Under the pieces are notes generated by a model that was not told the DNA's origin, did not search any database, and was given only the letters and a program-made list of their open reading frames with translations. A DNA stretch of 64,000 bases from NCBI GenBank assembly GCA_039105265.1, contig JAPFFF010000004.1, positions 5,518,001-5,582,000 of the forward strand. Reading direction: 5' to 3'. Numbering within the stretch: position 1 is the first letter of the stretch; each line of letters begins with the position of its first letter. A program made the position numbers and the translations under genes. Positions 3,541-53,477 of this stretch are shown piece by piece. The DNA is from Tritrichomonas musculus. Lineage: Eukaryota; Parabasalia; Tritrichomonadida; Tritrichomonadidae.

Positions 3541-4533
3541 GCATTTAATCATAACATCTTGCTTTTTATATCGATTTAAATTGTTAAAGCATTTACATGT
3601 CATATCATCTTCTGTCTCATCAATATGTGCTAAATTAGTATTTGCTCCATTTATAGGTGAATTGACATTTTTCACTTCTTGATAATTTCCTTCATTTGTA
3701 TCATTTCTATATATTGTGTTAATATAAGCAATGTGATTGTAATATTCTTCTTTATTAACATTTGGTGTTATGAAATTTGGATTCTTTTCTAGTTGATTGC
3801 ATATTTGTCTAAAATATGGTCTTGAGTCTTTATTTTCATTCCAACACTTTTGATTTAAATTTTTATAACAAAAAGGGATAGGTTGAGAGAATTTAGGGCG
3901 ATACCCCTTTAATATTGCTGCGGTTAATTGATTTAGATTAAACTCTAAAAAAGGAATTTCACCTGTTATTATTTCATATACAATCATTGCATATGAGTAA
4001 ACATCTCCTTTATTACTATACTCATTATTCTTTATTATTTCAGGAGCTGAATAATCATATGTACCTTTAAAACCGCTTTTATTTCATTATCCAAGAATGA
4101 TTTTTCATTCATATTTTTAGCCATCCCAAAGTCTGCTATTTTAGGATATAAATGCTCATCAAGAAGAATATTTGCTTGCTTTAAATCACGATGAATTTAA
4201 ATATGCCATTCCTGCCGCAATTCCATATATATTAATAAGCTTTTTTGTATCATCCCAATCATGCTTTACGATACCTCTCCTTTCCAACTCGAGAATATCA
4301 TCCAATGATCCATTTATTGCATATTCGGTAATAATCACTGGCTTTGGTTTTCCTTTGAAGTTAATTGGACAGAATCCAAAAAATTTCAGGATCGGTTGGT
4401 AAGTCAACGCTGAAATTATATTGATTTCTCTTGATAAATTCAAAATAGTATCATCGGGACATTCGTCTATTCCGTATTTTGATACTTTTGCTGCATACAC
4501 AGTATTATTTTGTTTATCAATGATTTTATACAC
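3541..4533 (-). pseudogene. Decayed protein kinase domain (second of a tandem array)
   Basis: All main kinase motifs are still readable on the minus strand but in three frames. These are YAAKVS (the VAIK lysine), a hinge like [24 protein letters not shown] and ADFG just below 4190, APEII near 4040, GDVYSYAMIVYE, and C-W-N-E-N-K-D-S-R-P. Frame breaks lie near 4190 and 4083. From 3987 downward one frame carries the end of this C-lobe directly into the N-lobe of the next kinase (to 3259), so the parent gene encoded several kinase domains in one polypeptide. The motifs are well preserved, so decay is recent or one break could be a sequence error. Confidence 0.7.
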
Positions 4534-4577
4534 ATTTCCAAAGCATCAATTTCAAATTTTTTTTTGCTTTCGAAATT

Positions 4578-5215
4578 TTAGTAAGATCGCTTGATCCAAG
4601 GTTGACTCTTTAAATGTTGCCTTGTAAAATCGCGAAACTTTTTGTAGTCGATTTTAACCTTACGAAATCTTTGATTCTGTGTTTTAATATAATTATCAAG
4701 TTCGGAAACTTCTTTGTTTTTATTATATTTATTTTGAATTTCATCAATGAATTGAATAAAGTTTTGGAATTCTTTTTTGTCAACATTTTCTGTGATGAAT
4801 TCTTGATTTGATTTTAAATGATTTAATATTTCATCGAACGTCGGCCTTCCTACAGGATCATGAGCCCAAAACTTGCTAATAAGATTCTTGTAGCATTCTG
4901 GTGTCGTTTCATTGAGTTCTGGACAATATTTTTCCTTATTTCGTTCATTTAAAAACGGTTTTTCATTTGTGATTAGCTGATATGCAATCACTCCGAAAAA
5001 ATAAACATCTCCTGCTGAACTAAAAAGTTGACTTGTGACTTGTTCATTAGGTTTGTAAACGTCATTATCATAGTAAAAATCTCCAGGAGTTTGAATATCA
5101 GAAAGCGAATCAATAGGATTTTTTGACAAAATCTTAGAAATATCAAATCCTGTGATTTTTGGGAATAAGAAATCATCAAGAAATATCAAATCCTGTGATT
5201 TTTTGACAAAATCTT
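4578..5215 (-). pseudogene. Kinase C-lobe fragment (first of a tandem array)
   Basis: About 200 residues of a kinase C-lobe: ITGFDIS in place of the DFG motif, D-V-Y-F-F-G-V, W-A-H-D-P-V-G-R-P-T-F and the same short tail (KKEFQNFIQFIDE) found after the other two units. The N-lobe and catalytic loop are missing. A segment of about 35 bases reading AAATATCAAATCCTGTGATT is duplicated at 5141-5160 and 5181-5200, so the 5' end was rearranged. There is no ATG at the 5' end. It is probably the truncated first domain of the same polykinase gene. Confidence 0.65.
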
Positions 5216-5325
5216 TTAAAAAGTCAAAGAATTAGGTAATATATTGATTAATTAAATGAATGGAAAAATTGCACTTTTTGTAAAGTTTTCAATTTGAGAA
5301 GTCTGTTTTTTAAGAGTAAATTTCC

Positions 5326-8300: not shown

Positions 8301-8527
8301 CTGATGAAATTAATGATACTGAAATTTTAAGACTTTTATGGGAAAAAAAAGTACAACAACGACTAATGAAACAAACAAATGACCCAATAATGGATAAATT
8401 AATACAAAAATCGAAAAATGATACATTAACAACTGAGCCATTTCAAAGATTGGCAAATAAACAAAAGTCATCTGATTTGCTTAATTTGTTGTTTTCATCA
8501 TTACAAAAAAATGACAACAAATCATAA
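5337..8527 (+). CDS. Ankyrin-repeat gene split by minisatellite spacers
   Basis: Three coding blocks lie on the plus strand. Block 1 (5337-5450) starts MSQSDSIEASFFQAVKLGN and ends like an ankyrin repeat. Block 2 (5947-6039) is exactly 31 codons, KTSLYLAVENRN to DIDIAY. Block 3 (8261-8527) carries a last degenerate repeat (KTVLQLADEINDTEILRLLW) and a Lys/Asn-rich tail of about 60 residues to TAA. The spacers (5451-5946 and 6040-8260) begin ATTTTAA and end TTTTAT or TTCTAT, the same borders as in the larger locus at 47395-53477. Removing them keeps the frame and gives a small protein of about 157 residues. The known trichomonad branch/acceptor ACTAACACACAG is not seen. Whether the blocks are joined in RNA is unknown; a decayed gene is the alternative. 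Confidence 0.55.
5451..5946. repeat. Spacer 1 of the small ankyrin locus (degenerate 25-bp repeat)
   Basis: AT-rich spacer of 496 bases built from the same 25-base unit as 6040-8260 (roughly ATTCAAAATCATATCTTTCA plus AATNA) but more diverged at both ends. It contains stops in all forward frames and sits exactly between two ankyrin coding blocks. Confidence 0.75.
6040..8260. repeat. 25-bp minisatellite array, about 88 copies
   Basis: A 2221-base tandem array of a 25-base unit with core AATTCAAAATCATATTTTTC followed by AATNA. The position after CAAT varies most (G, C, A or T), and substitutions are scattered rather than clustered. Since 25 is not a multiple of 3, three successive units give a 75-base protein period, which produces long spurious open frames of the form FKIISFN-IQNHIFQ-NSKSYL at 6312-6542, 6662-6877 and 7362-7571. 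These are not genes. The array lies wholly inside the second spacer of the ankyrin gene. Confidence 0.9.
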
Positions 8528-10877: not shown

Positions 10878-10928
10878 AATATGGAAAAAAAGCACTTTTA
10901 CATTTAACTTTTGCTATTATTAAAAAAT

Positions 10929-12233
10929 ATGAAAAACGGGATCATATGTACCTTTGAAGACTTTTCTAAACTTGATTCAGATATCCAGTGCAACTCCTTG
11001 GTCATTACAAGTAATCAAGAAAATGAAACAAAAATTTCAAATCTTCTGAAATTTCTGAATGATCAAGGAGGCAATTACCTTTTTACAACTAGATACCAAA
11101 GCGATGTTGAAACTTCTGAAATTATATCTCAAATAAAAGAAATTGCAATTTCCAATCAAGTGATAGAAGATTTATATTCAAAACGCCTGCTAAACTCATC
11201 CGGATTTGAAAATCATTTGGGCAACTTCGAAACAATTTCAATTAAATTGATATATCCATCGTCTTCATTCGATAACATATACAATCAAATAATCGATCTT
11301 AAATCGAAACTTTCTACGCGCACAACGATTATCTTTAAAGTTTTTATCAGCGGAACCAGCGAAATCGACGAGAAATTTTCTCATTATTCAAACGTAGATA
11401 TTATAGAGATTGATAAAACAGTTACTTCAATTAAAAATAATTCATTCAATAAATGTTCATCTCTGAAAAAGCTCACAATTCCTACTTCTATAAAATCAAT
11501 TGAAAATAAAGCTCTTGATGGATTAACGCCATCAACCCAAATCATAATTCCTCCACCTAACGATCTTAATATTCCAGACGTACTATATTATTTTGGCCTT
11601 CTTTATATGGAAGGAAAAGTAATTGAAAAAAATTACGAAAAAGCATTTGAATACTTGAACAAATCAAGAAAAATTGACAGCCCTGATTTACTATATTTTT
11701 TGGGCGTTCTTTATGAAAAAGGAGAAGAAGTTAAACAAGACTTAACCAAAGCAAAAGAATATTATGAAAAAGCAGCTAACCTTGGTAAATTAGATGCATT
11801 GTATAATCTTGGTCTTCTTTACATGGAAGGAAAAGGTGTTGAAAAAAATTGGGCAAAAGCAATTGAATACTTTGATAAATCTGGTAAAATTAACGATCCA
11901 GATTTACTATATCGCATAGGTACCCTTTACGCAAAAGGAGAAGAAGTAAAACAAAATTTCACAAAAGCAAAGGAATATTTTGAAAAGTCAGCAAACCTTG
12001 GAAATTCAAATGCATCATATAGTCTCGGTCTTCTTTATCTAGGTGGATACGGTGTTGATAAAAATTGCGCAAATGCAATTAAATACTTGGATAAATCTGG
12101 TAAACCTTATGATCAAGATATACTATTTTCTTTAGGTGTTGCTTATCTAAGAGGTGAAGGTGGTGAACAAAATACTAAGAAAGGAATTGAATACTTAAAA
12201 AAATCAAAGGTTTTTGAAAATTCAAATACTTAA
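10929..12233 (+). CDS. LRR_5-Sel1 repeat fusion protein
   Basis: A 434-residue protein from ATG 10929 (MKNGIICTFEDF); the frame is open a little upstream but without another usable ATG. Residues about 1-140 match the N-terminal module of the LRR protein at 445-2067 (for example FENHL...I-Y-P-S and IFKVFISG). About two LRR_5 repeats follow near 140-200 (CSSLKKLTIPTSIKSIENKA). Residues about 205-430 are six Sel1/TPR-like repeats of 36 residues (LYYFGLLYMEGK...NYEKAFEYLNKS). The Sel1 repeats alternate two sub-types (LYMEGKGVEKN and LYEKGEEVKQD), so the array grew by duplicating pairs. Sel1 arrays are protein-interaction scaffolds. No signal peptide or membrane segment is seen. The specific role is unknown. 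Confidence 0.85.
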   Translation: MKNGIICTFEDFSKLDSDIQCNSLVITSNQENETKISNLLKFLNDQGGNYLFTTRYQSDVETSEIISQIKEIAISNQVIEDLYSKRLLNSSGFENHLGNFETISIKLIYPSSSFDNIYNQIIDLKSKLSTRTTIIFKVFISGTSEIDEKFSHYSNVDIIEIDKTVTSIKNNSFNKCSSLKKLTIPTSIKSIENKALDGLTPSTQIIIPPPNDLNIPDVLYYFGLLYMEGKVIEKNYEKAFEYLNKSRKIDSPDLLYFLGVLYEKGEEVKQDLTKAKEYYEKAANLGKLDALYNLGLLYMEGKGVEKNWAKAIEYFDKSGKINDPDLLYRIGTLYAKGEEVKQNFTKAKEYFEKSANLGNSNASYSLGLLYLGGYGVDKNCANAIKYLDKSGKPYDQDILFSLGVAYLRGEGGEQNTKKGIEYLKKSKVFENSNT

Positions 12234-29795: not shown

Positions 29796-32700
29796 ATGTT
29801 CTTTTATTTGTTGATATGCTTCAAATTAATCCAAAACAATTCAACGATACTAAAGCATAATATGCATATATCTGATTTCGTTATTAAGCAATGTAATGAA
29901 ATAACTACAAATGTTGCCAACAAAAAAGAAAGAAAAACTGAATATTTTTATTGCAATAGTGGTTATGTAACATTCCATAATTGTTTCTTTGAAAATATAG
30001 AAATGGCAAAAGATAAGGCTTCACATTTACTGCATTCTGAAACAGCTCATCTTTCAATTTTGAATTGTAAATTTAGCAATATCAAATATTCAGATGCCAT
30101 GATTTATCTGCAAACTACTAAAAAAAGTAAAGATTTTCATTTTACGCTAACTTCAAATGAAATATACAATTGTGAAACTCGTAATTCAAATGGAAGAATT
30201 GTTTTATCGCATTCACAAACAAATGACGTACAAAACAACTATATTTATTGTAATATAATGACAAATTTAGCTCAAGCTTTTTATTTTTACTATACTGATG
30301 ACATTTCTTTTATTAATAATACAATTATAAATGCCAAATGTTCTGATATGGGAAGTGCAATTTACACAAAGGAAGATGGAAATGGAAACACTCTCCAAAT
30401 TTCTAATTGTGTTTTTTCCAATTGTCGCGGTAAGCGTGGTTCAATTATTTACATTAATGGATTAGGCTCAGACATCAACATAGAAAAATCAACTTTTACA
30501 GATTGCAAGAACTTGGAAATTGATGGAAGCTTTATAAGAATTGGTGTACAAAAGAATAAAAAAATAACTTTTACGGAATGCAACTTTGTTTATTTAGAAA
30601 GTTGCTCTAGCAATGGAGGAGTTGGCATATTAATCGATGATGTCACAATAGATACATTTACAAGATGTGTATTTAAGCATATAAATCACAACCATAACTC
30701 AATTGGAAGCGGAGCGCTGGCATATGAGAGCTCAAAATCAGACCTTATTATTGATAACTGCACTTTTTATAATATTACAGATTCGCATAATGGCGGTGCT
30801 ATTTACTTCAATTCTAAAGATAAATACTTAAAAGTTGATAAGTGTTATTTTGAACAAACAAAGTCCAGCGTTGATGGCCATTCTATTTGTATTCTAGCGA
30901 GTAATACATACACAATTACTATTTCAGATTCTCATTTTACTGATTGTGGATCGTTAGCAAATACTTATGTTATCAATATTAATAGCGTTAACTTTGACTT
31001 TTTCAATAATGAAATTACTTTTAATGATCCATTAAATAGCTGTGGTTGCATAAAATCAAACAAATATCAAGAACATAACTATCGAAATAACCTTTTCAAA
31101 AATGCTCATGTTGATTTTGAATCAAATTCTGCAGGAATTGATGAATCTAATTCTGCTGGATCAAATAAAATTGAAATAACTAACAATATATTTGATGGCA
31201 TTTCTGGTCCAAGTGAAGGGAGATGCTTTTATGTAAAGTATCCAAAAGATTCCACTGGTCTCATTATTTCGGGTAATATTGTTCAGAATTGTCCAGCTGG
31301 TGGAATTTTCATAAAATTATTATTTGAAACACAAATCAATGAATTTGTGTTTCAGAATTTTCAGTTCATTAACAATTCAGTTAGTGATGTTTCTTACAAT
31401 AAGTATCATTCATGCTCCCAAATATATGTTCAAAATCCAATGAATGGAAATTTTGGAGGTGAAGTCACTCTCAAATTTGAAAACTGCACATTTCAGAATA
31501 ATGCAAGTCCTAAACAAGGTGGTGCTTTAGCTTATGGAAGAAACCAGTACAATTCATATTGTAAAATTATTATTAATAATTGTTTGTTCGTTGGCAATAG
31601 TGCAAAAGAAGGTGGATCTGCACTCTCACTTATTGTTTATCAAGGTTGTGAAATAACAAACTCTCGTTTCACTCAAAACAAATTTGAAACAGGAAGTGGC
31701 TCCATCTATATTGAAACTGATTTTGACTGTCCAAATGTAAATGAAAAGCCAACAAGAAGTCCTGTAATAAGCATCAGTAATTGCATTTTTGATGATACCG
31801 AAGGAAAGGATGCAGGAATTGTTATTAATAGTTCACCAAATGCACCTGTTTCGATTCAACATTGCACCCTCAATAAATGTGGAAGCTCAGGCCATTCAAT
31901 TGATATTCAATCAAGCGTGCAATCAACATTTATTCATAATTGTACTCTAAATGCTGGTCCTGGTGGAGTGTATGTGCATAGTGCAGGCAAGATTGAATTA
32001 TCATACAATGATTTTGTTAAGACATCAACGGACTCAGCTTTATCAATTGAGTCTGAAGATGCGTCAGAAACAGTATCAATTACCCAATGTCTTTTTGATT
32101 CTTGTTCAGGAGCAGTTCATAGTTGTTTCTATATTTCAGCACAAACTGATTCTTTTGAATTTAAAGACATTATAATTCAAAATTCCAAACTAGAAGGCTG
32201 TGAAAATTATATTGGTTCATTGAATTTGAAAGAAGGTTTTACATTCACAATGACAAACTTTTCTTTCAAATATAATTCTTGTTCTAGTTTGTTTGGTGGT
32301 GGTACAGGAATGTTATTTAGTGGAATATCTGAATTAACATTTAATATTTGTGAGTTTTCAAACAACGAAGCTCATCAAGATAAAGCATCAAGTCGTCCTC
32401 TAGAAAACTCTCCAGATAATCCTTATTATAATGGCGATGGAGGTGCTATTCAAATTGGATGCCAAAAAGATACAAAACTGAAAAAAGTTACTTTTAATAT
32501 GTGCAGCTTTAATAATAACAAAGCCTTCAGGCATGGTGGAGCCATTGCGATACAGACAGTAAATGAAGTAGATCTTATTGATTGTAAATTTGATGAAAAC
32601 ATTGCAAACTTTAATTTTGAATCATCGGGCACACTGTTATTTGAAAATCATTTTCATAAAAAGAAAGAAGGAAGAGGAGGAGCCATTTATCTGAATCCTG

Positions 32701-35700
32701 CTGCTGGATGTTCAGAGTCATTCACTAGTGCATTTACAATTAATAATTGTGAATTGAACAAAAATAATGCTTATGATGGTTATGCCATTTATGTTGAAGG
32801 TGATGATCCAACAACTAAGTTTGTTTTCATTAAAAATCAATTTATAGACAATTATAATGAAAATAATCGTGATAGTGATCCAGCCATAATTTATGGAGCT
32901 GTGATTGCAACCGAAATCTGCTCCATTACACATGATACACTTCATCAACAAGAGAATCCTGAAAATGATAATGTGTTTTCTTATTCTAAAACTATAAAAG
33001 TTAATGAATTATCTTGTGTTGATCATTCTGGCAGAACACCTACACATGCATTCACTGAGTCTGATTATTTCCCTTCAGATCTATTCACTCCTTCGATTTC
33101 TTTTTCTTATTCTGGTTCGTTTTCTCATTCAAATGCATTTACAGACTCAAATCATTTTACTCCATCCAATTACTTCCCAGGTACAAATAACTTTACCAAA
33201 TCTGATGTATTTTCAAGATCTGATTATTTTACAAAGTCAGGTTCTTTTTCATTATCGGGCCACTTTACAAAATCTGATTATTTTTCAAAGTCAAACCAGT
33301 TTACAGACTCAGAAAAATTTTCAAAATCAAGCAGATTTACTCATTCAGATATCTTTTCAAAATCAGAAGCTTTCACTAAGTCGGCTTTGTTTTCAGAATC
33401 AGAGCACTTTTCTATGACAAATGAGTTTTCAGTGTCTGATTTCTTTACAAAATCAAATCAATTTTCAAATTCAAACAAATTTACTAATTCTGATTCATTC
33501 TCTGAAACAGGTTCTTTTTCAAAATCTGATCTATTTTCTTATTCAAGACTGTTCACAAAGTCAGATCACTTTACAGAATCAAATATCTTTTCGAATTCGA
33601 ATTTGTTCTCAAAATCAAACCAATTTTCTAAATCAAATCAGTTTTCTGAAACTGATTCTTTTTCAAAAACAGGCTGGTTTTCTGATTCGGGTCACTTTTC
33701 TGAAACGAATGAATTCACTACATCTGATGCATTTACTAGTTCAGTCCAATTTTCAAATTCAGTAAAGTTCACTATTTCAAATCCTTTTTCAGAAACGGGT
33801 TCTTTCTCGAAGTCTGATTTGTTTTCAAATTCTGATTTATTCTCAAAATCAGGTCATTTTTCAGATTCACAACATTTCACTTATTCAAATCAATTTTCAA
33901 ATTCAAAACAGTTTTCCAATTCAAATCAATTTTCAGAAACGGGTTCTTTCTCGAAGTCTGATTTGTTTTCAAATTCTGATTTATTCTCAAAATCAGGTCA
34001 TTTTTCAGATTCACAACATTTCACAAATTCAAATCAATTCTCAAATTCAAAACAGTTTTCCAATTCAAATCAATTCTCTGAAACGGGTTCTTTCACAAAA
34101 ACTGAATCTTTTTCAGAATCAACTTGTTTCACAGAATCAGGTCATTTTTCAATCTCAGGTCATTTTACTGAAAGTAGTCCTTTTTCACTCTCAAATTCTT
34201 TCTCATTAACAGCCAAATTTTCATTTTCGCATTTGTTTAGTGAAACAAAAGAGTTTTCTCTTACAAGCCAATTTACTAATTCTGGAATGTTTACTGAGTC
34301 AGATACATTTTTGCCTTCATGCAAATTTTCTTCTTCAAATGAATTTAGTAAAACGCAAGTATTTTCAAATTCAAAAAAGTTTTCTATTTCAAATGAATTC
34401 AGTTTATCTGAATCATTCTCAACTTCAAGAAGTTTTTCTGATTCATTTTTCTTTTCGGTTTCGAAGAGATTTTCTGAATCTTGCTTTTTCTCTAATTCAA
34501 AAATGTTCAGTTATTTTCAAAAGTTTAGCTTTTCAATAAGCTTTTCCACATCTGATGATTTCACGATATCAAAATGTTTCACACAATCGAAGACATTTAT
34601 GCCAACATATGACTTCTCGGATTCAAAGAAATTTAGCAAAACTCAGCATTTTACTTTTTCGACTTTATTTACATATTCAAACGAATTTAGTTTAACGAGT
34701 TCATTTTCATATTCAACAAGATTTACAAATTCATTAAAATTTAGTGAAACGTCATCATTTTCAAAATCAAAAGAATTTTCCCATTCAAAAGATTTCAGTC
34801 CTTCACATCCATTTTCGGCCAGTGTTCCATTTTCTAATTCAATTCAGTTTAGCGAATCAATATCATTTTCGCCATCAGTTGAGCCAATTCCAACAGGAGA
34901 GCCAAAATGCGAATTTTTCGAAGATGGAAATGTAACCTTGTCGTATGATTGCAAATATATATTTAACAACGATAGCAAGTTTGTCTATGTTCACGTTTTA
35001 TCAACTATTTTCACTGGTTCAAAAGATGAAAACGAAGGTGGCGCTGTAAGTCTCATTAATTGTGGGATTTTATGTAATAATACGCATTTTATTGACTGTG
35101 TTGCACAAAGTGGTAGTGGAGGTGGTGCAATATACATCAATAATTCATTAAATATTGAAAACAATGCAACTTTTATTGATCTTCAATTTATACGTTGCAT
35201 TGCTGATTATGGCGGAGCTGTTTATCTTTACTCTAGTTCTGATCTTTATGATATTTCTTTCACGAGATGCTACTTCGAAAGCAATAGCGCATTGTTAACG
35301 AAAAAGCCATCAAATGGAATAAATGATTATCTATTTGGAGGAAGCGCTCTTTTCTTAGCATGCAAAAATTCTCTTGTTATAAACTGTACATTCTTGCATA
35401 ATAAGAATGGTGGAGCCATTAAAATATATGACGTTTTCGAAAGAAATAAGAAGAGAATCACACTTGAAAATAGTGAAAATAAAATTTCAATTCTCGGATG
35501 TCAATTCGAGCAAAATGAAAACTCAAAAAGTTCGATTTTTTATGAGGAAAAAAATGGAAATCCAATTGAAGTTAAAGACTGCAACTTCAAAGGTAAATTA
35601 AACAAAGGTTCACATTATATTGATGGTAATTTTCTTACTAAAGAAAAAATTCAAATTAGTTCCTGCAACTTTGAAAATGATGTGAATAATTCAGTTAACT

Positions 35701-35936
35701 TCAATAGCATCAATGATTTCCAGATAAAAGTTAACAGAAAAGGATATTTGAAATTATTTTCGTTTACTTTGTATATTGATGCAGGTTGTATTGCTATCAT
35801 TGCATTGATATTTGCTTTTATTGCCATATGCCTTATATTATTGTATTGTTCAATGCATGATAATGAATCACAAGAATTATTCATAAATGAATTGAAAGAA
35901 AATTCATTTTCCAAAGAAGAAAAATCATTGTTATGA
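29796..35936 (+). CDS. Pmp-like giant surface protein with F-S-x-S-x-x stalk
   Basis: A 2046-residue type I membrane protein. The N-terminus (MFFYLLICFKLI) is a probable signal peptide. Residues about 20-1075 are a right-handed beta-helix of the polymorphic outer membrane protein type, with many GGA(I/L/V) motifs (GGALAYG, GGAIQIG, GGAIYLN) and F-x-x-N motifs (FSNN, FNNN), plus Cys-rich C-x-F strands. Residues about 1083-1695 are roughly 100 hexads F-(S/T)-x-(S/T)-x-x. Residues about 1697-1985 return to beta-helix (GGAVSL, GGAIYIN, GGAVYLY, GGAIKIY). A hydrophobic anchor at about 1988-2012 precedes a 34-residue acidic tail. A 144-base segment coding eight hexads is tandemly duplicated at 33791-33934 and 33935-34078. 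Trichomonads have a Pmp-like family thought to act at the surface, perhaps in adhesion; the function here is inference. Confidence 0.9.
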   Translation: MFFYLLICFKLIQNNSTILKHNMHISDFVIKQCNEITTNVANKKERKTEYFYCNSGYVTFHNCFFENIEMAKDKASHLLHSETAHLSILNCKFSNIKYSDAMIYLQTTKKSKDFHFTLTSNEIYNCETRNSNGRIVLSHSQTNDVQNNYIYCNIMTNLAQAFYFYYTDDISFINNTIINAKCSDMGSAIYTKEDGNGNTLQISNCVFSNCRGKRGSIIYINGLGSDINIEKSTFTDCKNLEIDGSFIRIGVQKNKKITFTECNFVYLESCSSNGGVGILIDDVTIDTFTRCVFKHINHNHNSIGSGALAYESSKSDLIIDNCTFYNITDSHNGGAIYFNSKDKYLKVDKCYFEQTKSSVDGHSICILASNTYTITISDSHFTDCGSLANTYVININSVNFDFFNNEITFNDPLNSCGCIKSNKYQEHNYRNNLFKNAHVDFESNSAGIDESNSAGSNKIEITNNIFDGISGPSEGRCFYVKYPKDSTGLIISGNIVQNCPAGGIFIKLLFETQINEFVFQNFQFINNSVSDVSYNKYHSCSQIYVQNPMNGNFGGEVTLKFENCTFQNNASPKQGGALAYGRNQYNSYCKIIINNCLFVGNSAKEGGSALSLIVYQGCEITNSRFTQNKFETGSGSIYIETDFDCPNVNEKPTRSPVISISNCIFDDTEGKDAGIVINSSPNAPVSIQHCTLNKCGSSGHSIDIQSSVQSTFIHNCTLNAGPGGVYVHSAGKIELSYNDFVKTSTDSALSIESEDASETVSITQCLFDSCSGAVHSCFYISAQTDSFEFKDIIIQNSKLEGCENYIGSLNLKEGFTFTMTNFSFKYNSCSSLFGGGTGMLFSGISELTFNICEFSNNEAHQDKASSRPLENSPDNPYYNGDGGAIQIGCQKDTKLKKVTFNMCSFNNNKAFRHGGAIAIQTVNEVDLIDCKFDENIANFNFESSGTLLFENHFHKKKEGRGGAIYLNPAAGCSESFTSAFTINNCELNKNNAYDGYAIYVEGDDPTTKFVFIKNQFIDNYNENNRDSDPAIIYGAVIATEICSITHDTLHQQENPENDNVFSYSKTIKVNELSCVDHSGRTPTHAFTESDYFPSDLFTPSISFSYSGSFSHSNAFTDSNHFTPSNYFPGTNNFTKSDVFSRSDYFTKSGSFSLSGHFTKSDYFSKSNQFTDSEKFSKSSRFTHSDIFSKSEAFTKSALFSESEHFSMTNEFSVSDFFTKSNQFSNSNKFTNSDSFSETGSFSKSDLFSYSRLFTKSDHFTESNIFSNSNLFSKSNQFSKSNQFSETDSFSKTGWFSDSGHFSETNEFTTSDAFTSSVQFSNSVKFTISNPFSETGSFSKSDLFSNSDLFSKSGHFSDSQHFTYSNQFSNSKQFSNSNQFSETGSFSKSDLFSNSDLFSKSGHFSDSQHFTNSNQFSNSKQFSNSNQFSETGSFTKTESFSESTCFTESGHFSISGHFTESSPFSLSNSFSLTAKFSFSHLFSETKEFSLTSQFTNSGMFTESDTFLPSCKFSSSNEFSKTQVFSNSKKFSISNEFSLSESFSTSRSFSDSFFFSVSKRFSESCFFSNSKMFSYFQKFSFSISFSTSDDFTISKCFTQSKTFMPTYDFSDSKKFSKTQHFTFSTLFTYSNEFSLTSSFSYSTRFTNSLKFSETSSFSKSKEFSHSKDFSPSHPFSASVPFSNSIQFSESISFSPSVEPIPTGEPKCEFFEDGNVTLSYDCKYIFNNDSKFVYVHVLSTIFTGSKDENEGGAVSLINCGILCNNTHFIDCVAQSGSGGGAIYINNSLNIENNATFIDLQFIRCIADYGGAVYLYSSSDLYDISFTRCYFESNSALLTKKPSNGINDYLFGGSALFLACKNSLVINCTFLHNKNGGAIKIYDVFERNKKRITLENSENKISILGCQFEQNENSKSSIFYEEKNGNPIEVKDCNFKGKLNKGSHYIDGNFLTKEKIQISSCNFENDVNNSVNFNSINDFQIKVNRKGYLKLFSFTLYIDAGCIAIIALIFAFIAICLILLYCSMHDNESQELFINELKENSFSKEEKSLL

Positions 35937-38921: not shown

Positions 38922-41900
38922 ATGAGCTTAAACATTATCGACAATTTCATGAGATTTCATGCATTATTAGAAAATAATAGTCTTTGCTTCAGAAAAGAAA
39001 ATTTTAAAGAAGTTCTTCTAGGTTTTTTTTTTCGATATATATCAGAAACTTATTCATGCAATGAGGCTGAAAAGCAAAAAATTATAGAAAGTGCGAAAAA
39101 TTCAAATGTAATTATAATTGACCAAAACAAATGCTTCAACGAAAAAATGAACAAAAAAAATCTTATTTTATGTTTTGAAAAATCATTAATTGTTTTGGAT
39201 GGTTCATCAATATTGTATCTTAATGATATTTTATCAGCAAATGCTAGAATGTCAATTTGTTATTTATCAAATTCTAAAGAGATCATTCAAGAAAAGTTCA
39301 ATGTTAAAAATTCAGAAATTAAAAATGATTCGAACTTTATAGAAGAAATCCAAAATCTAAGTCTTGGTCTCACTTTAATTACACAAATTAGAATAATGAA
39401 GCAAATTTGGTCATTTATTTCTCCATGTATATTAAATTATTTATTAATTAAAAGCTATATTGGATGTAAAAAATACCGAATCCAAAATTTTATTTATGAT
39501 TTGGAAAATGATTCAAAACTAGAGACTATTAACCAAAACGAATATATCGAATTACGAATTATTGGAAAAGGAAGTATATCACAAAGTGTTCTTATTTACC
39601 ACATAAAAAGAGGCGAATTATATGCATTAAAAAAAGCATATTCAAAAGATTTTGAAATCCCGAAATTAGTTCAACGTGAAGTATCAAATTATAAAAAAAT
39701 CAAGCATCCATTCCTTCCAAAATTTTATGGTACTGTTCAAGATAAAGGCTATATTATAACTGAATATATCAAAGGTGAAACGTTACTTAAGGTAAAAAAT
39801 ATTAAACTATCGTATGATGAAAAAGCTACAATTCTATTCGAGTTGATGATGATTATCAAATATTTTCATGATAATAAATTGATCTATCGAGATTTAAAAC
39901 CAGATAATGTCATAATAGATGAAAACAAAACAGCCGTTTTAATTGATTTTGATAGATTAATTGAGAATGACACTAATCAAGAACACACTTTGAACTTTTT
40001 CTCTGATTTTTGTGACCCAGAAATCAATATAACAAAGAAATTTACATTTGGAAGTGATATTTATTCACTTGGGAAAATGATTGGTTATTTGTTAAAGCAA
40101 AAAGAAGCAGATATAAATTCTAAAAAATCTTTTGTAGACTATATTTATACAATATGTACAAATGAATCATCAACAAAAAGACCTTCTATTTTGGATTTAA
40201 TTAAATTATATATTTTGAATTTTCATGATAAAATTAAAATTGAGCAATTATTTTGCACGTATAAAGAACATTTTATGCATTTTGAAGAAATTAATAAGAT
40301 TTTGAAAAAGTATGATGAGTATAAGAATGGTCCAATATTAAATTTTTTCCTAGGTAATATTTATAATGAAGGAATATATATTCCAAGAAACATTCAAAAA
40401 ACAATTCATTATTTTACTCTGGCCTCTAATCAAAATCACAGAGAAGCACAATATGCACTTGCTTTTATTTATCATGAAGGTACAGATATTCCACGAGATA
40501 TTAAAAAAGTAATATATTATTTATCATTAGCAGCAGATCAAAATCATCCAGAAGCCCAATATTATCTTGGTATTCTTTACGTTGAAGGGAAAGAAGTTCA
40601 AGCAGATTATAAAAAAGGGATTCATTATTTCACACTTGCCTCCCATCAAAATCATTCAGAAGCGCAACTTGTACTAGGTTTCATATATCATGATGGAATA
40701 TATATTCAACAAGACATCAACAAATCAATTCATTTTTTAACTCTAGCATCGAGACAGAATCATCCAGAAGCTCAATTTTCACTTGGTCTATTATTTTATG
40801 AAAATAAATGTGTCCAGCGTGATATAAACAAATCAATTTATTATTTTACTCTTGCTTCAAATAATAATCATCCACAAGCTCAATATTTACTTGGTTGTAT
40901 TTTTTATGAAAATAAATACATTCGAGAAGATATGAACAAATCAATTCATTATTTCACATTGGCTTCAATTAATAATCATCCAAAAGCTCAATATTGCCTT
41001 GGAGTTTTTTATTATAATGGAAATTATGTTCCACGAGATATCAATAAATCAATTCATTATTTCTCATTAGCTTCAAATAAAAATCATTTAGAATCTCAAT
41101 TTTTTCTTGGACTGATTTATTTTTCAGGGACTTATCTTCCAAAAGATATCAATAAAGCAATTTATTACTTATCCTTAGCTTCAAGCTATAATCATCAGGA
41201 TGCACAATTTTTGCTTGGTATTATTTATTATGATGAAGATTACTCTCAAAGAGACATCAACAAATCAATTTATTATTTCACATTAGCATCTAATCAAAAT
41301 CATCCAGAAGCGCATGATTTCCTAGGACGCATTTATTATGAAGGAAAGTATGTCAAACAAAATATCAGTAAGGCAATTCATTATTTTTTGCTTGCCTCGA
41401 GCCAATGTATTTCAAATTCGCAATTCACTCTTGGTCAAATATATTTTTTGGGACAATATGTTCCTCAAGATATCATGAAATCAATCCATTTTCTGACACT
41501 TGCGTCAAATCAAAATCATTTTGATGCGCAATTTCAACTTGGACTCATTTATTATTTGGGTTTATTTATTGAACAAAACATCAAAAAAGGGATTTATTAC
41601 ATAATTCTTGCTTCAAAGAATGGAAGCTGGGATGCTCATTTTTGCTATGGGTTTTTGCTTCACGAAGGAAAGAGCCTTAAAAGAGACATTGATGGAGCAA
41701 TACATTATTATAAAGAAGCATCAACGTTTAATATTCAATTTGCTAAAAATAATCTTGGAGTTATCTACTTAAAAGGATTTGGAAACCAAATTAAAAAGAG
41801 TGTTGGAACTGCTGTTGAATATTTTGATGAAGCTATTCGAAGAAAAAAAGATTATTTATCTATGTATAATCTGGCACATACTTACATATATGAAGAAACA

Positions 41901-42293
41901 ATCAAGCAAGATATTGATAAATTGGTTGAATTATTAATTGAATCATCCAGTCACTTCCTTAATTCTGTAATTTTATTAAGTATATTCTTAATTAAAAATT
42001 TTGGATTTGATATAGAAAGAATCAAGAGTGAAATTACAAAACGTGCAGGAAATAATAGCAAATTGGTGTTAAAAGTATCCAATATTGTCAAATTCATCAA
42101 TATATTAGGGAAATCAACTTTTGAGTCATTATTTGATATATATCGAACCAAAATTTTTTTATACAACATTGAAGCAAAACCTATTCTAATAACAAAAATA
42201 ACAGAAATCAAAATTAAAGAAGTGAGTCCAAATTATCCAAAAGCAAAGAATATATCACATTTATTTTATGAAGGATTTGGGATTGATCTTTAA
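38922..42293 (+). CDS. Protein kinase fused to a Sel1-repeat array
   Basis: A 1123-residue protein from ATG 38922. Residues about 1-200 are a helical N-terminal region. Residues about 208-425 are a kinase domain: GKGSISQSV loop, YALKKA (ATP lysine), catalytic YRDLKPDN in place of HRDLKPDN, and DFD in place of DFG, followed by SDIYSLGKMIGYLL. The catalytic Asp, Asn and metal-binding Asp are present, so activity is possible. From about 470 to 970 there are some 14 Sel1 repeats of 36 residues (AQYCLGVFYYNGNYVPRDINKSIHYFSLAS). The C-terminus ends ISHLFYEGFGIDL, shared with the decayed gene at 12555. No membrane segment. Sel1 arrays probably recruit substrates or complexes; the pathway is unknown. 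It resembles trichomonad kinase-Sel1 proteins. Confidence 0.9.
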   Translation: MSLNIIDNFMRFHALLENNSLCFRKENFKEVLLGFFFRYISETYSCNEAEKQKIIESAKNSNVIIIDQNKCFNEKMNKKNLILCFEKSLIVLDGSSILYLNDILSANARMSICYLSNSKEIIQEKFNVKNSEIKNDSNFIEEIQNLSLGLTLITQIRIMKQIWSFISPCILNYLLIKSYIGCKKYRIQNFIYDLENDSKLETINQNEYIELRIIGKGSISQSVLIYHIKRGELYALKKAYSKDFEIPKLVQREVSNYKKIKHPFLPKFYGTVQDKGYIITEYIKGETLLKVKNIKLSYDEKATILFELMMIIKYFHDNKLIYRDLKPDNVIIDENKTAVLIDFDRLIENDTNQEHTLNFFSDFCDPEINITKKFTFGSDIYSLGKMIGYLLKQKEADINSKKSFVDYIYTICTNESSTKRPSILDLIKLYILNFHDKIKIEQLFCTYKEHFMHFEEINKILKKYDEYKNGPILNFFLGNIYNEGIYIPRNIQKTIHYFTLASNQNHREAQYALAFIYHEGTDIPRDIKKVIYYLSLAADQNHPEAQYYLGILYVEGKEVQADYKKGIHYFTLASHQNHSEAQLVLGFIYHDGIYIQQDINKSIHFLTLASRQNHPEAQFSLGLLFYENKCVQRDINKSIYYFTLASNNNHPQAQYLLGCIFYENKYIREDMNKSIHYFTLASINNHPKAQYCLGVFYYNGNYVPRDINKSIHYFSLASNKNHLESQFFLGLIYFSGTYLPKDINKAIYYLSLASSYNHQDAQFLLGIIYYDEDYSQRDINKSIYYFTLASNQNHPEAHDFLGRIYYEGKYVKQNISKAIHYFLLASSQCISNSQFTLGQIYFLGQYVPQDIMKSIHFLTLASNQNHFDAQFQLGLIYYLGLFIEQNIKKGIYYIILASKNGSWDAHFCYGFLLHEGKSLKRDIDGAIHYYKEASTFNIQFAKNNLGVIYLKGFGNQIKKSVGTAVEYFDEAIRRKKDYLSMYNLAHTYIYEETIKQDIDKLVELLIESSSHFLNSVILLSIFLIKNFGFDIERIKSEITKRAGNNSKLVLKVSNIVKFINILGKSTFESLFDIYRTKIFLYNIEAKPILITKITEIKIKEVSPNYPKAKNISHLFYEGFGIDL

Positions 42294-47394: not shown

Positions 47395-48501
47395 ATGGAT
47401 TACTTTAGCTATTTGAAAAAAATGCAATGCATTCAAAAAAGTATTCTTGATTATATCGAAACAGAAGAGAATATCGATGAAAATTACGAAAAATTGATTT
47501 ATTTTTTCAATGATCAAAATATTTTCGAAGATCCGCATATTTTTAAAGAAATCATTACATTAATATTGTGTATATCAAACAATCATCATAGAACAGAGAC
47601 TTTTTTTGCAAAAATTGATCGAATTATCCTTTTTTTCAAAGACGCAATTCTTAAAAATTTCTCAAATTACGAAATATTCACAATTTTCCGCAAAAACTAC
47701 CGAATATTGTTATTTATGCTAAAAGAGAATATCCTCAAAATCGATATTTCAGTATTTTCGAAACTTAAAAATAAAACTTATAGAAAAGCATATTATCCAA
47801 ATTATTTTATTCCAGAATTCAGAGAGCTTCTTGCAGAAAAAGACAAAATAAAGAGCAAAAGGCAAATACCAGATCCTTCCAAACAAAACATTGGGAGAAA
47901 CTCCGAAGAATTTGAAAGAAAACGAGAAATTGCTGAAAATGACGATCAAATTTGTGAAATAATTCGAAAAGACTCAGTTGAGGACTTTATATCGTACATA
48001 TCGAATTCCAGTTATTCGCTTACATCGACAGTTGGATCATCAATCTTTGAAACAAATGCGTTTTTGATTAACAAAAATCCGACTTTAATTGAATACGCAG
48101 CTTTTTATGGGTCTCTCAAAATTTTCAATTACTTGATTGAAAATGAAATTGAATTGACGCCATCATTATGGCTATTCGCCGTCCATGGTCAAAAAATGGA
48201 ATTACTTCATATTCTTGAAAATAACAAAATAATGCCAGAAGACATGTCTTACAAAAATTCGCTTCTTGAGTCAATTGCATGTCATCACATTGAAATGACC
48301 GAATATATTATGAAAAAAGTTCAGAGGATTGATAAAAAAGCGATTATTGAGGAGAGTGTTCGTTATAATAATTACGAATATTTTCCTGTTGAAATGATCG
48401 TCAATCCTGATATTTTTTATGAGTTATGCAAGTATGATTATATTTCAATTGTTGAATTTTTCTTGAAGGAAAAAATTGACTTTAATCAAACTAAAATTTG
48501 A
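47395..48501 (+). CDS. DUF3447-type N-terminal part of an ankyrin protein
   Basis: A 368-codon open frame from ATG 47395. Residues about 1-110 match the helical N-terminal region of trichomonad ankyrin proteins (ILDYIETEENIDENYEKLIY, ISNNHHRTETFFAKIDRI, IFTIFRKNYRILLFML). Residues about 190-365 are the DUF3447-like domain with degenerate ankyrin helices (TLIEYAAFYGSLKIFNYLIE, SIACHHIEMTEYIMK). The last coding helix, ISIVEFFLKEKIDFNQTK, is half an ankyrin repeat. The frame then meets ATT TGA, which is the start of a spacer of the same type as those between the modules downstream. The domain is thus cut off mid-repeat and continues after 48907. The protein probably ends prematurely here unless the spacer is removed. 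Confidence 0.8.
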   Translation: MDYFSYLKKMQCIQKSILDYIETEENIDENYEKLIYFFNDQNIFEDPHIFKEIITLILCISNNHHRTETFFAKIDRIILFFKDAILKNFSNYEIFTIFRKNYRILLFMLKENILKIDISVFSKLKNKTYRKAYYPNYFIPEFRELLAEKDKIKSKRQIPDPSKQNIGRNSEEFERKREIAENDDQICEIIRKDSVEDFISYISNSSYSLTSTVGSSIFETNAFLINKNPTLIEYAAFYGSLKIFNYLIENEIELTPSLWLFAVHGQKMELLHILENNKIMPEDMSYKNSLLESIACHHIEMTEYIMKKVQRIDKKAIIEESVRYNNYEYFPVEMIVNPDIFYELCKYDYISIVEFFLKEKIDFNQTKI

Positions 48502-51500
48502 ATTCAATTGTTTGAATAAAATTTCAAAAAAGCAATTATTTTTAATTGCATTCTTGATCAATTAATTTTTATAGAGTTTTTTGATTTAATTAATTAATAA
48601 AATTCCAAAAAAATAAATTTGTTATTTATAGAATTCAAAATCATTTTATTTCTAACCGAGTTTTAAACCAAATATTTGAATGAAATTCTTTAAAACATTT
48701 TTTTATGGAATTTAAATATATTTTAATGGAGTTTTTAGAAATTTTTTTTTATTTGGTTATTAATAAACTATTTTTAAATAAAATTTCAAATTAATTAAAT
48801 TTTTATGTAATTTCAAAGTAACTGTTCGAATATCGATATTATAAATTTAATTATTAAATAAAATTTTAAATGTTCGTCTATAATACAATTTCTTTAAATA
48901 AATTCATAATACTGCATTTTTTGTTGCAGTTGAAAAAGGAAATGTTGAAATTGTTGAACTTTTATTGGCTTGTAAAGACGTTGATATAACTATTAAATCA
49001 ATTTTCTAGTTAATATTTGTCATAAAATTTCATTGGAAATTTTTAAATATCGTTTTAAATTTAAATTGTTCATTTAGTTTTCGAGTAATTATTTAAATCT
49101 CATTTTATATCATGTATTTGAATTTCATTTCAAACCTGATGTTTAAATGCAATTCCTATTTGATCTTATTAATTGCATTCAAAAAAAATATTATTTTTAA
49201 TGCAATTCTAAAAATTTTTATTTTAATCCTATTTCAATTTTAATTATTTGATGGAATTGAAAATAGAATATTTAAATCATATTTCATATATTAAAATTTA
49301 AATGAAATTTCTTATTAAATAGTTTTATGTAATTCTAAAAATAAATACTTTAATCAAATTTTTATAAAAATTATTCATCAAATTTAAAATAAGTTTATTT
49401 TTATATGATTTTACAAAATAAAATATTTTAATGAAATTCTAAAAATTAGTTTTAATGCAATTTTCATTGATTTTTTTTAATAAAACTGCTTTACAAGTTG
49501 CAATTGAAAGAGGAAATCCAGATATTGTTAAAATGATACTGGAACGTCCAGAAACAGATGTAAATGCAAAATCAATTTTAATAACCATTTTTTATACTAT
49601 TCAATTTATTTGTCTTTGAATTATATTTCAAATCAAACAGTTTTAATCAAATTAAGCAAAATATTTTTATAAAATTTCAAATTTGTTTTTATTGAATATA
49701 ATTCACAATGTTTTATTATTTATATGATTTTAGCATATATTATTTTTAATCGAATTTTATAATTGTATTTTTTCATGGAATTTCAAATTTATTTTTTAAA
49801 TCAAATTTTAAATCATTATCATTTATTACATTATAATTTAAGTGTTTTCATTCAATTCCTTAATATATTATTTTTCATTCTATTCCAAATAAAGATTTTT
49901 TTATTTCGTTCTAAATCATTTTATTTTTAATCAAATTTTAAATAGTAATTTTAACAAAATTTAATTAATTAATTTTTATTCAATTTCGAATACTAATATT
50001 TTTTATTATGTTTTAAATTCAATGTTTTAATGAAATTTAATCTTATTTTTTTATAAACCACCGCTATATATAGCAATTGAGTATGGAAATCCATTAGTTG
50101 TCCAGCATCTATTAGAATGTCCAAATATTGAAATTAATGTAACTGCAGTTTTATGTTAATTATTATAAATAGCATTTTAAAATATCAAATATTTTCATAT
50201 AATTCAAAATATTATTATTTTTATAAAATTTAATATAGTTCGTTTAAAATACAATTCCAAAGGAAATAATTAATGAAATTATAATTTTTTGTATTTTAAT
50301 AAAATTAATTTTATTTTGAATGAAATTATAAAATAATTTTTTAATTCAATTTGAAATTATTTTATTTTCAATAAAATTTCAAAACAATGATTTCATAAGA
50401 CTGTTCTTCATATTGCATGTAAGAATGGAAATACAAATATTATAAAACTTCTTTTACAACGTAAAGAACTTGATATCAATATGAAATCCGTTTTATTATT
50501 ATTTTATTTCATATTGTTTTTCTTAAGTTTTTTTAATATCATTTTAATAATATTTTTTTTTAATTATGTTCTATATATTTATTTTTTCATAAAGTTACAA
50601 ATAATATATTTAAATCAAATTTCATATTTTTTATTTTAATAGCATTCAAATTTAATTTTAGAAATGGAATTGAAATTAGAATTTTCAAATGCAATTTTTT
50701 TTCAAATTTATAAATATAATTCAAAATCAATATTTTTTTCATTTCGTTTCAAATTTAAAGTTATAATGAAATTTTGACCAATATTTCACAAGTCTGTTCT
50801 ATATTTCGCTGCTCAAAATTCAAGCCCTGAAATAGTTGATCTTTTATTAGAACGCCAAGATATAAATATAAATGATACATCAATTAAAAATTATTGTTTT
50901 GAATAAGATTTCAATTTTATAAATTTAATGAAATTTCAAGTGATTATTTAAATGAAAATACAATTTAAATTTTCTTTTTTTAATATGATTATCAATTATA
51001 ATTATTAATCTAATTTGAAATTAATAGTTTTAATGGAATTTTTAATATTGTTTTTTAATACTGTTAAAAAATAATTTTTTTAATATAATTTTAATAATCT
51101 ATATTTTTCTTATATAATTCATAGAAATATAATTTAATGTAAGAACATCCTTGCACATTGCTGTAAAAAGAGGAAATATTGATATTATACAAAGCTTGTT
51201 AGCATATAAAGATATTGATGTTAACATCAAAACAATTTTTTTATTTGATTGTTTTTATTTAGTTCAATTCAAAATGTTTTAATGGAGTTTATTCAAAATT
51301 AAAAATAAAATTTGAAATGAAAAGATATTTCATAAAATTCAATATTTTAACTTTTCATCAAATTTTTGATTAAAATATTTTAAATTTCGTTTTAATTTTA
51401 TGATTTTTAATGGAATTACAAATAAAGATATTTCATTCTGTTGATGAGATTTCATTTGATAAATTTTCGTAACGTTTTTAATTTAATAATAATTTATTCA

Positions 51501-53249
51501 ATTTATGAATAAATTGGTTTTATTATATTTCACATTTAAATATTATAATGAAATTTTGTATTGTTATGATTTATCATATTTCAATTCATAATATTTATAA
51601 AACTGCATTATGCCTTGCTATAGCGAAAGGAAAGGTTGAAATCATTAAGCTTTTATTGGCACATAAAGATATAAATGTCAATATTCCATCAGTTTAAAAT
51701 ATTATATTTTTATAAAATTCAAGATAAATGATTAAATTACATTTTAAATTGAAATATCAGTTATTCGGTTTATAAAAATATTTCTCATGACATTAAAAAT
51801 TTAACATTTTAATATAATTTCAGAAAAATAGTTTTAATTATATTTTATGATTTGTTATTTTAATAAAATTTTTATATATGATTATTTAATAACATTTAAA
51901 TAAATGCATTTTTGAATCGAATTTAAAGTGAATTGATTTCATCTAGTTTATAAATTTGATTTTTAAATATCATTTTAATTCAATTATTAAAATCTAGTTA
52001 GTCAAAATTATATCTTATTACATTTCAAATAATTATTCGAATGAAATTTCTAAATTAATTTTTATAGCACGCCTTTGCATATGGCCATTCATGGAAAAAA
52101 TGTTAATCTTGTGAAAACTTTAATTGAAAGAAAAGATACCGATGTTAACTTGAAATCAGTTTTTTTAAAAAAAAAAATTTATATCATTTCAAATAATTTT
52201 ATTTTCATTCAATTTCTAAAAAAAAAAATTAATACAATTAAAATATTTAATGTTTGAATTCTATTTCAAAGTATGCTTTTTAATGACATTTTAAAATCAT
52301 TTTATTAATATGATTCAAAAAAAAAAATTAATGGGATTCAAAAATTATAATTTTAATAAAATTTATTTTTAATTTTAATAAAATTTTATATAAAAATATG
52401 TCTAATATAGTTTTTATAGAAGCTTAAAAAACATCATTATTTATTGCAATTGAGAAAAAAAATATTGAAATTATTCGTTTACTGTTATCAAGGCAAGACT
52501 TAAATGTGAATGAACGCTCGATTTGAAATTACTTTTTTTGAATATAATTTCAAATCATCTTTTTTTATATCATTTCAAAAAAAAATTTATACTATTTCAA
52601 ATAATATATATTTTTATAGCATTTGAAAGCAAATCATCTTATAAAATTTCAGAAAAATATTTTTTTATTCAATTTAAATAAATGTATTTATAAATACAGT
52701 TTCAATTATTTAATTATTTATATAATTTCACAATGATTTTTGTTTTATACAGTTCTTCAACATATATTTGAATAAGATTGCAAAAAAAAACTTTTTTTAT
52801 AAAATTTTAAAATAAAATAATTTTATGAAATTTTAATTTACAAATTTTTATAAAACTCCTTTATACACTGTTTTTCTAAAAGGTAATGTTGAAATGGCTA
52901 AGCTTTTGCTCAGTAGACCAGATGTTGAAGTAAATCAAAAAACAATTCAATTTTGAATTTTTAAATATAATTTCAAATTAGTTATTATTTGAATATCGTT
53001 TTTTTGCAATTATGAGTTCTTATAAAGTTTTTAATCTTTAATTTTCATTACATTTATCAATTAAATATTTAATAAAGTTAAAAATATTTGATTTTTATTC
53101 AATTAAAAATTAAAATATTAATCAAATTTTAAATTCAATGATTTTATGATTCAATTTCAAATTTGAAATTTGAATGAAATTTTAAAGCAAATTTGCAAAT
53201 ATGATTCGAAATAAAATTATTCAAATGTTGTTTGTTTCTTATATTTTAT
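48496..53249. repeat. Eleven intron-like AT-rich spacers between ankyrin modules
   Basis: Spacer lengths in order are 412, 481, 480, 249, 300, 259, 364, 374, 269, 331 and 305 bases; a twelfth of 66 bases (53346-53411) has no stop. They begin ATT or GTT followed mostly by T (7 with A, 4 with G) and end TTTAT or a close variant just before the A-R-N codon of the next module. Inside they are made of degenerate units such as TTTTAATGAAATTTCAAAAT, a blurred form of the 25-base minisatellite of 6040-8260. Canonical GTAYGT donors and the trichomonad acceptor ACTAACACACAG are absent at the borders. Confidence 0.75.
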
Positions 53250-53477
53250 AGAACACCCCTTCATTTGGTTGCAGAAAGAGGATATGTTCAAGCTATACAG
53301 ATTTTATTAGAAAATCCAAGTATTGATATAAATATAACAGATGAAATTTTATTCTCAAAATATAATCAAATTTTGTTTGGGTATTTAATGATTATTTATG
53401 ATTATTTGTGGAGGACACCTGCTGATATAGCTCTAAATGAAAAAATAAGAGCAATGATAGAATCGCATTCAAAGTAA
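48908..53477 (+). CDS. Ankyrin module array: eleven 31-codon modules plus C-terminus
   Basis: Modules on the plus strand lie at 48908-49000, 49482-49574, 50055-50147, 50397-50489, 50790-50882, 51142-51234, 51599-51691, 52066-52158, 52428-52520, 52852-52944 and 53250-53342. Each is exactly 93 bases without a stop or indel, of the form K/R-T-(A/P/S)-L-x-(I/V)-A-x-x-x-G-N-x-(E/D)-I-(V/I)-x-x-L-L-x-x-x-D-(I/V)-x-(V/I)-N-x-K-S. The last runs on through a short in-frame spacer to a final half repeat (RTPADIALNEKIRAMIESHSK) and TAA at 53475-53477. Joined to 47395-48495 in this order the product would have about 750 residues and the DUF3447-ankyrin layout usual for trichomonads. A codon-level match of all modules with stop-filled spacers argues that the coding parts have been under selection until recently. 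How, or whether, they are joined is not established. Confidence 0.7.

Follow-up and report, generated by a model that had tools for sequence, protein, structure and literature searches.

Trichomonad introns are described as being of the GT-AG type, ~25 or 50–196 nucleotides (nt) in length, and present at one per gene, with two in three T. stableri genes (PMC12316389). In Trichomonas vaginalis and T. stableri, the introns of type B are T-rich and 23–28 nt long; their 5' motif is conserved, and their branch site is merged with the 3' end (PMC12316389). Tritrichomonas musculus, a commensal of the mouse gut, has 46,131 genes, 2,500 of them with introns, according to a genome paper whose main text does not contain the word "ankyrin" (PMC11978803). 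The window analyzed here, a stretch of 64,000 nt of this genome (contig JAPFFF010000004.1, positions 5,518,001 to 5,582,000 of the forward strand), carries at 47395–53477 an ankyrin gene that is probably functional and in which the linkers that connect the ankyrin repeats are probably encoded by trains of micro-introns with single-codon exons between them. This reading is supported by the grammar of the trains, the stop-free triplets between their units, the conservation of the encoded peptides, the selection acting on the ankyrin modules, and the linkers of relatives with continuous frames. The units predicted to be removed are 18–30 nt long, with a mode of 22, follow the pattern RTTT..AAA....TTTTNAT, and are separated by exactly 3 nt (687 units in 51 spacers). 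They are thus comparable in length to the type B introns and like them are parabasalid and T-rich, but they have AT/GT..AT ends, lack the motif and fused branch site, and would number ~150 in a single gene.

Several other systems come close in one respect or another. The coding part of schistosome micro-exon genes likewise lies largely in many tiny, symmetrical exons; however, these hold several codons rather than one and are separated by long canonical introns instead of 22-nt ones. The byps of mitochondria, which are sparse translational bypassing elements, are also short AT-rich units placed between codons within coding sequence, but form no periodic trains. Microexons of 3–15 nt go down to a single codon, are in frame, and often encode charged loops, and the 3 nt between our units agree with them in size, frame, and codon-like behavior; yet microexons are rare and use ordinary splice signals, whereas here they would stand tens in a row at a 25-nt spacing with unusual ends (PMC13149111, which also mentions AT-AC introns). 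The 15–16-nt introns of Stentor are very short and AU-rich too, but, unlike the units, have ordinary splice sites at both ends and a branch point at a fixed position (PMC9505925). A gene layout of this kind was not found in the titles and abstract beginnings of the literature matches listed, in a search that lies outside most subscription journals and bioRxiv; if confirmed, it would constitute a new kind of gene architecture.

The gene opens with a 367-codon exon 1, followed by 11 open 31-codon ankyrin modules set between AT-rich, stop-filled spacers. Exon 1 alone has no match in Pfam. Its database relatives (NCBI/UniRef) are T. musculus proteins (M9Y10_...) named DUF3447 domain-containing protein, and the gene fits the class of ankyrin-repeat proteins with an N-terminal DUF3447-type domain, as both the repeats and the related N-terminal domain are present. 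The 3' end of exon 1 falls at the same ankyrin-repeat position as the ends of the modules. An earlier, sequence-only reading of this DNA had reported eleven intact 31-codon modules at irregular spacing, with stops in every frame of all spacers but the last. All 11 modules are indeed open and irregularly spaced, although their start-to-start distances are 342–574 rather than the 343–580 quoted. The 11 spacers measure 249–481 nt, with a GC content of 0.10–0.14 and 3–18 stops per frame, and the final short spacer (53346–53399) is stop-free in one frame, as had been stated. Because only 5.1% of the 31-codon windows in the joined spacer sequence (192 of 3731 in the given register) are open, eleven consecutive open modules are not a chance occurrence. 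Autocorrelation of the spacers reveals a period of 25–26 nt.

This period was parsed with a grammar in which a unit (17–30 nt allowed, scored for an RTT start and an AT end) is followed by 3 nt, another unit, and so on. The 51 spacers comprise 21 from the window gene (11) and its closest paralog (L041), and 30 from 12 further loci among L016–L043, selected on the basis of their frame and spacer lengths, completeness, and module score; the duplicates L015, L021, and L040 were excluded, and L012 and L013 lie outside the range. The parser will divide any sequence into units, even a shuffled one, and hence it is the score that counts as evidence: the mean per unit is 7.72 with a 3-nt gap versus 3.2–4.6 with gaps of 1, 2, 4, 5, or 6 nt and 3.26 with shuffled interiors (51 spacers each). 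The boundaries of 679 of the 687 units are kept without the length prior. Since the scoring favors RTT and AT, only the AAA at +6 to +8 and the logos of the module ends are independent of it; these logos, which predate the grammar and derive from 72 and 67 module ends aligned on protein, display RTT and NAT. As parsed, with these ends favored by the parser, 531 units are of the form AT..AT and 129 GT..AT, 15 end in AC, and the 5' consensus is RTTTNAAA. U12-type AT-AC introns also often begin with AT, but carry a 5' ATATCC motif instead of RTTTNAAA and have the AC end found in only those 15 units. An exact pattern of two successive units occurs at 34 sites in the genome (193.4 Mb in 746 contigs searched), and its reversed control at none. 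Neighboring units in the window gene and L041 are no more alike (identity 0.527) than random pairs (0.528), which rules out that they are recent duplicates and indicates that the trains of these two genes are old.

Not one of the 636 triplets (263 + 373) between the units is a stop codon, against 20.9 + 40.1 expected from positional base composition; random triplets planted in the same trains contained 59.75 stops on average, all of which the parser recovered. Shifting the register of the 263 triplets by −1 or +1 gives 81 and 37 stops, respectively (with shifts of 2 or 3 the count is 0 or 1, since these fall inside the conserved unit ends), and the antisense triplets include 22 stops in 263 and 43 in 373. 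The peptides read from the trains of the window gene and L041 align with a score of 206; shuffled ones reach −12 ± 19 (at most 47 in 1000 shuffles), and pairings of trains that do not correspond score −29 to −111. Eight of the 10 spacers contribute to this alignment, as exemplified by TYQKIMRGQYSSFQKSYE / VFQKVLQGHGKYIKSYE and SIKTEKESK / SITIQKESK. The triplet bases of the two genes agree at ~63%, and the ungapped unit interiors at 46% versus 41% for random units. Where codons have changed (85 cases), the changes are conservative, with a BLOSUM sum of 58 versus a null of 20.8 ± 10.1 (0 of 2000) and 31 positive scores versus 25.3 expected (p 0.0095). The linkers of another locus, L034, resemble one another (KKSDNQSRKEK, KISEKSEYKEK, KKSDTKLRKEK). 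The third base of the triplets avoids T, which may limit silent change. The lack of stops and the conserved peptides indicate that the train triplets behave as codons, one per ~25 nt, in which case the spacers would themselves be coding and not the non-coding filler between coding modules that the sequence-only reading took them to be.

The paralog L041, at 61% in exon 1, has its 11 modules in identical order, and the spacer lengths of the two genes are similar (e.g., 481/489, 480/460, and 300/299). Between their modules (341 codons), nonsynonymous divergence (dN) is 0.28, synonymous divergence (dS) 0.96, and the ratio of the corresponding uncorrected proportions (pN/pS) 0.43 (bootstrap 0.35–0.52); exon 1 yields a dN of 0.26 and a dS of 0.97. 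As these values are nearly equal, the modules evolve like exon 1. The earlier reading had named a module dN/dS near 1 as the outcome that would speak against it, and the value found is ~0.29; the genus which that reading named, Tritrichomonas, is also correct. With purifying selection on a par with exon 1 and relatives holding such modules in one continuous frame, its proposal that the modules are joined very likely applies to the gene product. The idea that the modules instead form a cassette reservoir for gene conversion, of which the lamprey receptors are an example, was dropped, given that L041 keeps the module order and that the trains appear protein-coding. Exon 1 has at least 114 matches in its own genome (best 111 of 2792 candidates scored), 99 of those listed lying in open frames of 330–457 amino acids and 15 in frames of 602–1263 amino acids, counts that include split and duplicate matches. 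The listed matches mostly reach query residue ~358–368, and most of their frames stop soon after the domain. In nine of 11 loci listed, a later open frame starts with half of an ankyrin repeat, after which come leucine-rich repeats (by eye of the BspA type); several of these 11 have spaced ankyrin modules ahead of the leucine-rich-repeat frame. The T. musculus annotation ends the relatives of the gene at the first unit. A separate locus, L033, joins the N-terminal ankyrin-type domain within one frame to a part that by eye resembles a large GTPase-type domain (motif GDLRTGKST).

Relatives of the gene offer a further comparison. In the T. musculus protein M9Y10_037314 (P0242, 831 amino acids), modules alternate with linkers, for instance DVNTKS-RLKKIVPKEKNIIKEE-TALNLA, and other database proteins are built likewise. 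Modules 3–5 together with their linkers find at least 162 continuous-frame matches in the genome (best 150 of 3637 candidates scored); the best one listed has 39% identity over residues 4–111, with 324 stop-free nt, i.e., 108 codons for 108 residues. E is the final residue in 75 of the 206 linkers taken from 41 database proteins and in 28 of the 51 train-coded ones; when the last two positions are excluded, its share is ~10% in both sets. Median linker length is 15 in the database proteins versus 11 in the train-coded set. Their amino acid compositions correlate at 0.87, which is a weak point as base composition alone gives 0.81. When aligned to 25 hand-picked relatives, the real linkers outscore each of 40 shuffles for all three genes tested; for the window gene, the score is 359.4 versus 348.2 ± 3.3 with shuffled linkers and 300.9 without linkers, and wrong registers give 280–348, the +2 register (347.6) equaling the shuffled level. 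The database protein P0243 and the locus L017, with 83% identity in exon 1, provide a side-by-side case: P0243 reads NINAKSAD, VFLFFYGLN, KTPLQ, and in L017, split up by hand, the order is NAKH, unit, N, unit, D, unit, KTPLI. If VFLFFYGLN is one unit read through, this suggests that codons contiguous in P0243 are single in L017, with protein length remaining equal.

Under the micro-intron reading, each ~22-nt unit would be non-coding and removed, and the 3 nt between two units would make a one-codon exon. Exon 1, which specifies the N-terminal ankyrin/DUF3447-type domain (47395–48495, ending in KEKIDFNQTK), would be followed, all on the forward strand, by train 0 (48496–48907; 16 micro-introns and 15 single-codon exons, KCRKRREGGLKVIKT) and the first 31-codon ankyrin exon (48908–49000). 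Train 1 (49001–49481; 19 and 18, KILLFACAPGHEVQQMEA) leads to ankyrin exon 2 (49482–49574), train 2 (49575–50054; again 19 and 18, with the peptide TYQKIMRGQYSSFQKSYE given above) to exon 3 (50055–50147), train 3 (50148–50396; 10 and 9, SIKTEKESK) to exon 4 (50397–50489), and train 4 (50490–50789; 12 and 11, IIYKQSGAIFE) to exon 5 (50790–50882). Train 5 (50883–51141; 10 and 9, KETMLGTII), which has the lowest parse score per unit in the gene, precedes exon 6 (51142–51234); train 6 (51235–51598; 14 and 13, LGKKQFGSKFYEH) precedes exon 7 (51599–51691), and train 7 (51692–52065; 15 and 14, KYSDIYKNRLILYE) exon 8 (52066–52158). Then come train 8 (52159–52427; 11 and 10, ISTSDMGKKI), exon 9 (52428–52520), train 9 (52521–52851; 13 and 12, IITSKSTITKKE), exon 10 (52852–52944), train 10 (52945–53249; 12 and 11, IIKYKSQSEMV), and exon 11, which has 31 codons plus one for Glu (53250–53345). 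A last train (53346–53399), divided by hand with the same end motifs, consists of a micro-intron (53346–53366), the codon CAA (53367–53369), and another micro-intron (53370–53399), and the last exon (53400–53477) adds DYLWRTPADIALNEKIRAMIESHSK and the stop TAA. Exon 1, the 11 ankyrin exons, 141 one-codon exons, and the last exon would thus be joined with 153 micro-introns skipped, yielding 31-residue ankyrin modules alternating with linkers of 9–18 residues. On this count the gene would be about ten times more fragmented than the earlier reading proposed. Removal most likely takes place in the RNA, probably one unit at a time, and might be spliceosomal with unusual ends, proceeding codon by codon, or depend on a new activity, with ribosome hopping as an alternative. 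Trains would grow by duplication of a 25-bp unit, each copy adding one residue, as the similar units of a second gene suggest.

This second gene (5337–8527, forward strand) shares the layout: it comprises three ordinary exons plus 107 single-codon exons, none of them a stop. Its putative exon 1 begins with ATG and spans 38 codons (5337–5450, the end being set by hand at the first unit), followed by a train of 20 micro-introns and 19 single-codon exons (5451–5946, KEYKKEKKQEEDLISGYEE), a 31-codon ankyrin exon (5947–6039), a train of 89 micro-introns and 88 single-codon exons (6040–8263), and a last exon reading VSLVKSKTVLQLADE...KNDNKS plus stop (8264–8527, with a hand-set start uncertain by one unit end). 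The long train would encode an 88-residue linker rich in Q/E/M/R/L that starts NEYKYDDKLYEEYQKHQKQMQQLQEQMEQIETQRRKEQTEYDYNSYLVNDIIAAQRAQ... The array at 5441–8275 contains 104 successive 22-nt units, with 97 of the 103 gaps being exactly 3 nt, and 25 different triplets with no stops (5.4 expected from base composition). Its units are alike at 0.61–0.98 per position, which suggests recent growth by unit duplication. Elsewhere, locus L075 has 19-nt units with 35 of 55 gaps of 3 nt and no stops in the 35 triplets (3.2 expected); its trains precede an EEEHEKQMAEK coiled-coil reading frame without ankyrin repeats, and the layout may accordingly extend beyond ankyrin genes. L077, again with 19-nt units (55 of 66 gaps of 3 nt, no stops in 55 triplets, 8.9 expected), may be a gene consisting almost entirely of single codons; its train is partly duplicated and seems to lead into a short, stop-containing exon. 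In other ankyrin genes, short spacers that hold one or a few units occur at the ankyrin loop (e.g., L001, L002, L003, L007, L050, L057, and L059). Boundaries set by the strict motif leave exactly 21 nt, the length that a canonical repeat requires, in eight of 24 such spacers, the top among 34 lengths with the next at four; lax-motif boundaries do so in 11 of 24, with the next length at nine. The L002 spacers of 21 and 22 nt are G-free.

One alternative, near the sequence-only view, is that each spacer in its entirety acts as a non-coding intron that separates two ankyrin exons and is excised at once, its triplets remaining untranslated. Selection on the modules and spacers that as a whole are AT-rich and full of stops would fit it, but we consider it unlikely in light of 0 stops in 636 triplets where ~60 are expected, the triplet peptides conserved between paralogs, the similar length and last residue of linkers in continuous-frame relatives, and the improved alignment to those relatives with real linkers. 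Alternatively, the triplets could be codons with the units staying in the mRNA and the ribosome hopping over each of them. Train units do sit between whole codons, as hopping requires, and lack a known splice-site consensus; however, this would take ~150 hops per protein over units whose length varies from 18 to 30 nt, and some units of L001 and L057 seem by their motif to split codons (ambiguously by one base), leaving such bypassing unlikely. A third view, to which we give little weight, takes the trains as minisatellite arrays in a decaying gene family, their stop-free triplets reflecting a constraint on the DNA and not translation. The ~25-bp tandem repeats, the odd base usage of the triplets (few T at position 3), and the missing third-position excess of change speak for it, whereas the module dN/dS, the stops confined to the antisense triplets, the peptide conservation, and the continuous homologs speak against it.

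That the units are ordinary parabasalid GT-AG spliceosomal introns which merely escaped annotation is suggested by the 23–28-nt length of type B introns (PMC12316389), but it is contradicted as to splice sites and hardly deserves credence: 238 of the 687 units have no G, 411 no GT, and 577 no AG, and there is no GT or AG consensus at the 72 and 67 protein-aligned module boundaries. Further, the exact patterns GTATGT N4-30 ACTAACACACAG and TACTAACACACAG have no match in the genome, and GT-AG ends leave the canonical 21 nt in none of the 24 short spacers (18 nt in two). The count of 0 GT..AG units in 687 is partly imposed by the parser, which favors AT ends.

Several observations count against the micro-intron reading itself. 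Changes in the triplets show no third-position excess (46/45/44 differences in 121 codons), and synonymous ones are not significantly more frequent than expected (12 versus 10.3, p 0.12). Trains 5 (score −1) and 8 (score 3) have no alignable L041 peptide, and only four of the 11 window-gene linkers end in E. The joined product is absent among the matches listed from protein databases (best 120 of 456, 3402, and 128), which is hard to weigh; no retrieved protein that shares >75% identity with the exon 1 of one of 30 loci crosses a train, although P0243 passes one unit, and a continuous copy of the 88-residue linker was not found in the search. Euglenid-type nonconventional introns have their ends brought together by base pairing, but the unit ends display no notable covariation, and the folding energy of 200 sampled units is as in shuffled sequence. 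Finally, both matches to U6, at 42.5 and 42.0 bits (Rfam cut-off 44), carry the ordinary ACAGAG box, implying that a spliceosome is likely present with a U6 that is not visibly adapted. The U1 small nuclear RNA model has no match in the genome, with a control that is uninformative. Contiguously joined modules of the form N-x-K-S-I-F-x-K-T number 0 in the genome; this guess at the junction was wrong because it did not include the linker codons.

Extending the micro-intron reading beyond the two window genes, it is possible, though we hold this more loosely, that non-GT-AG micro-introns (RTTT..NAT, ~18–30 nt) occur genome-wide and are removed by a machinery distinct from the ordinary spliceosome, precisely enough for protein segments of up to 88 residues to be encoded at one codon per 22–25 nt, and that linkers lengthen or shorten by single residues as 25-bp units are gained or lost. 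If true, there would be genes with mostly single-codon exons and ~150 exact removals of 22-nt introns in a lineage described as intron-poor, challenging views of how small exons and introns can be and of how splice sites are recognized. Tandem-repeat DNA that is usually masked as non-coding could then be coding, and the T. musculus annotation would miss parts of many proteins.

Other genes in the window include a kinase on the reverse strand (3259–5231), for which micro-introns were considered; its kinase-like frames overlap one another or are offset by one or two bases, and it is perhaps a pseudogene or affected by assembly errors instead. A 2046-amino-acid frame at 29796–35936 combines beta-helix and Chlamydia-PMP-type repeats (Pfam) with an 18-bp repeat region. 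Two Sel1-repeat proteins (Pfam) are encoded at 10911–12233, with a leucine-rich (BspA-type) part, and at 38922–42293, with a protein kinase domain.

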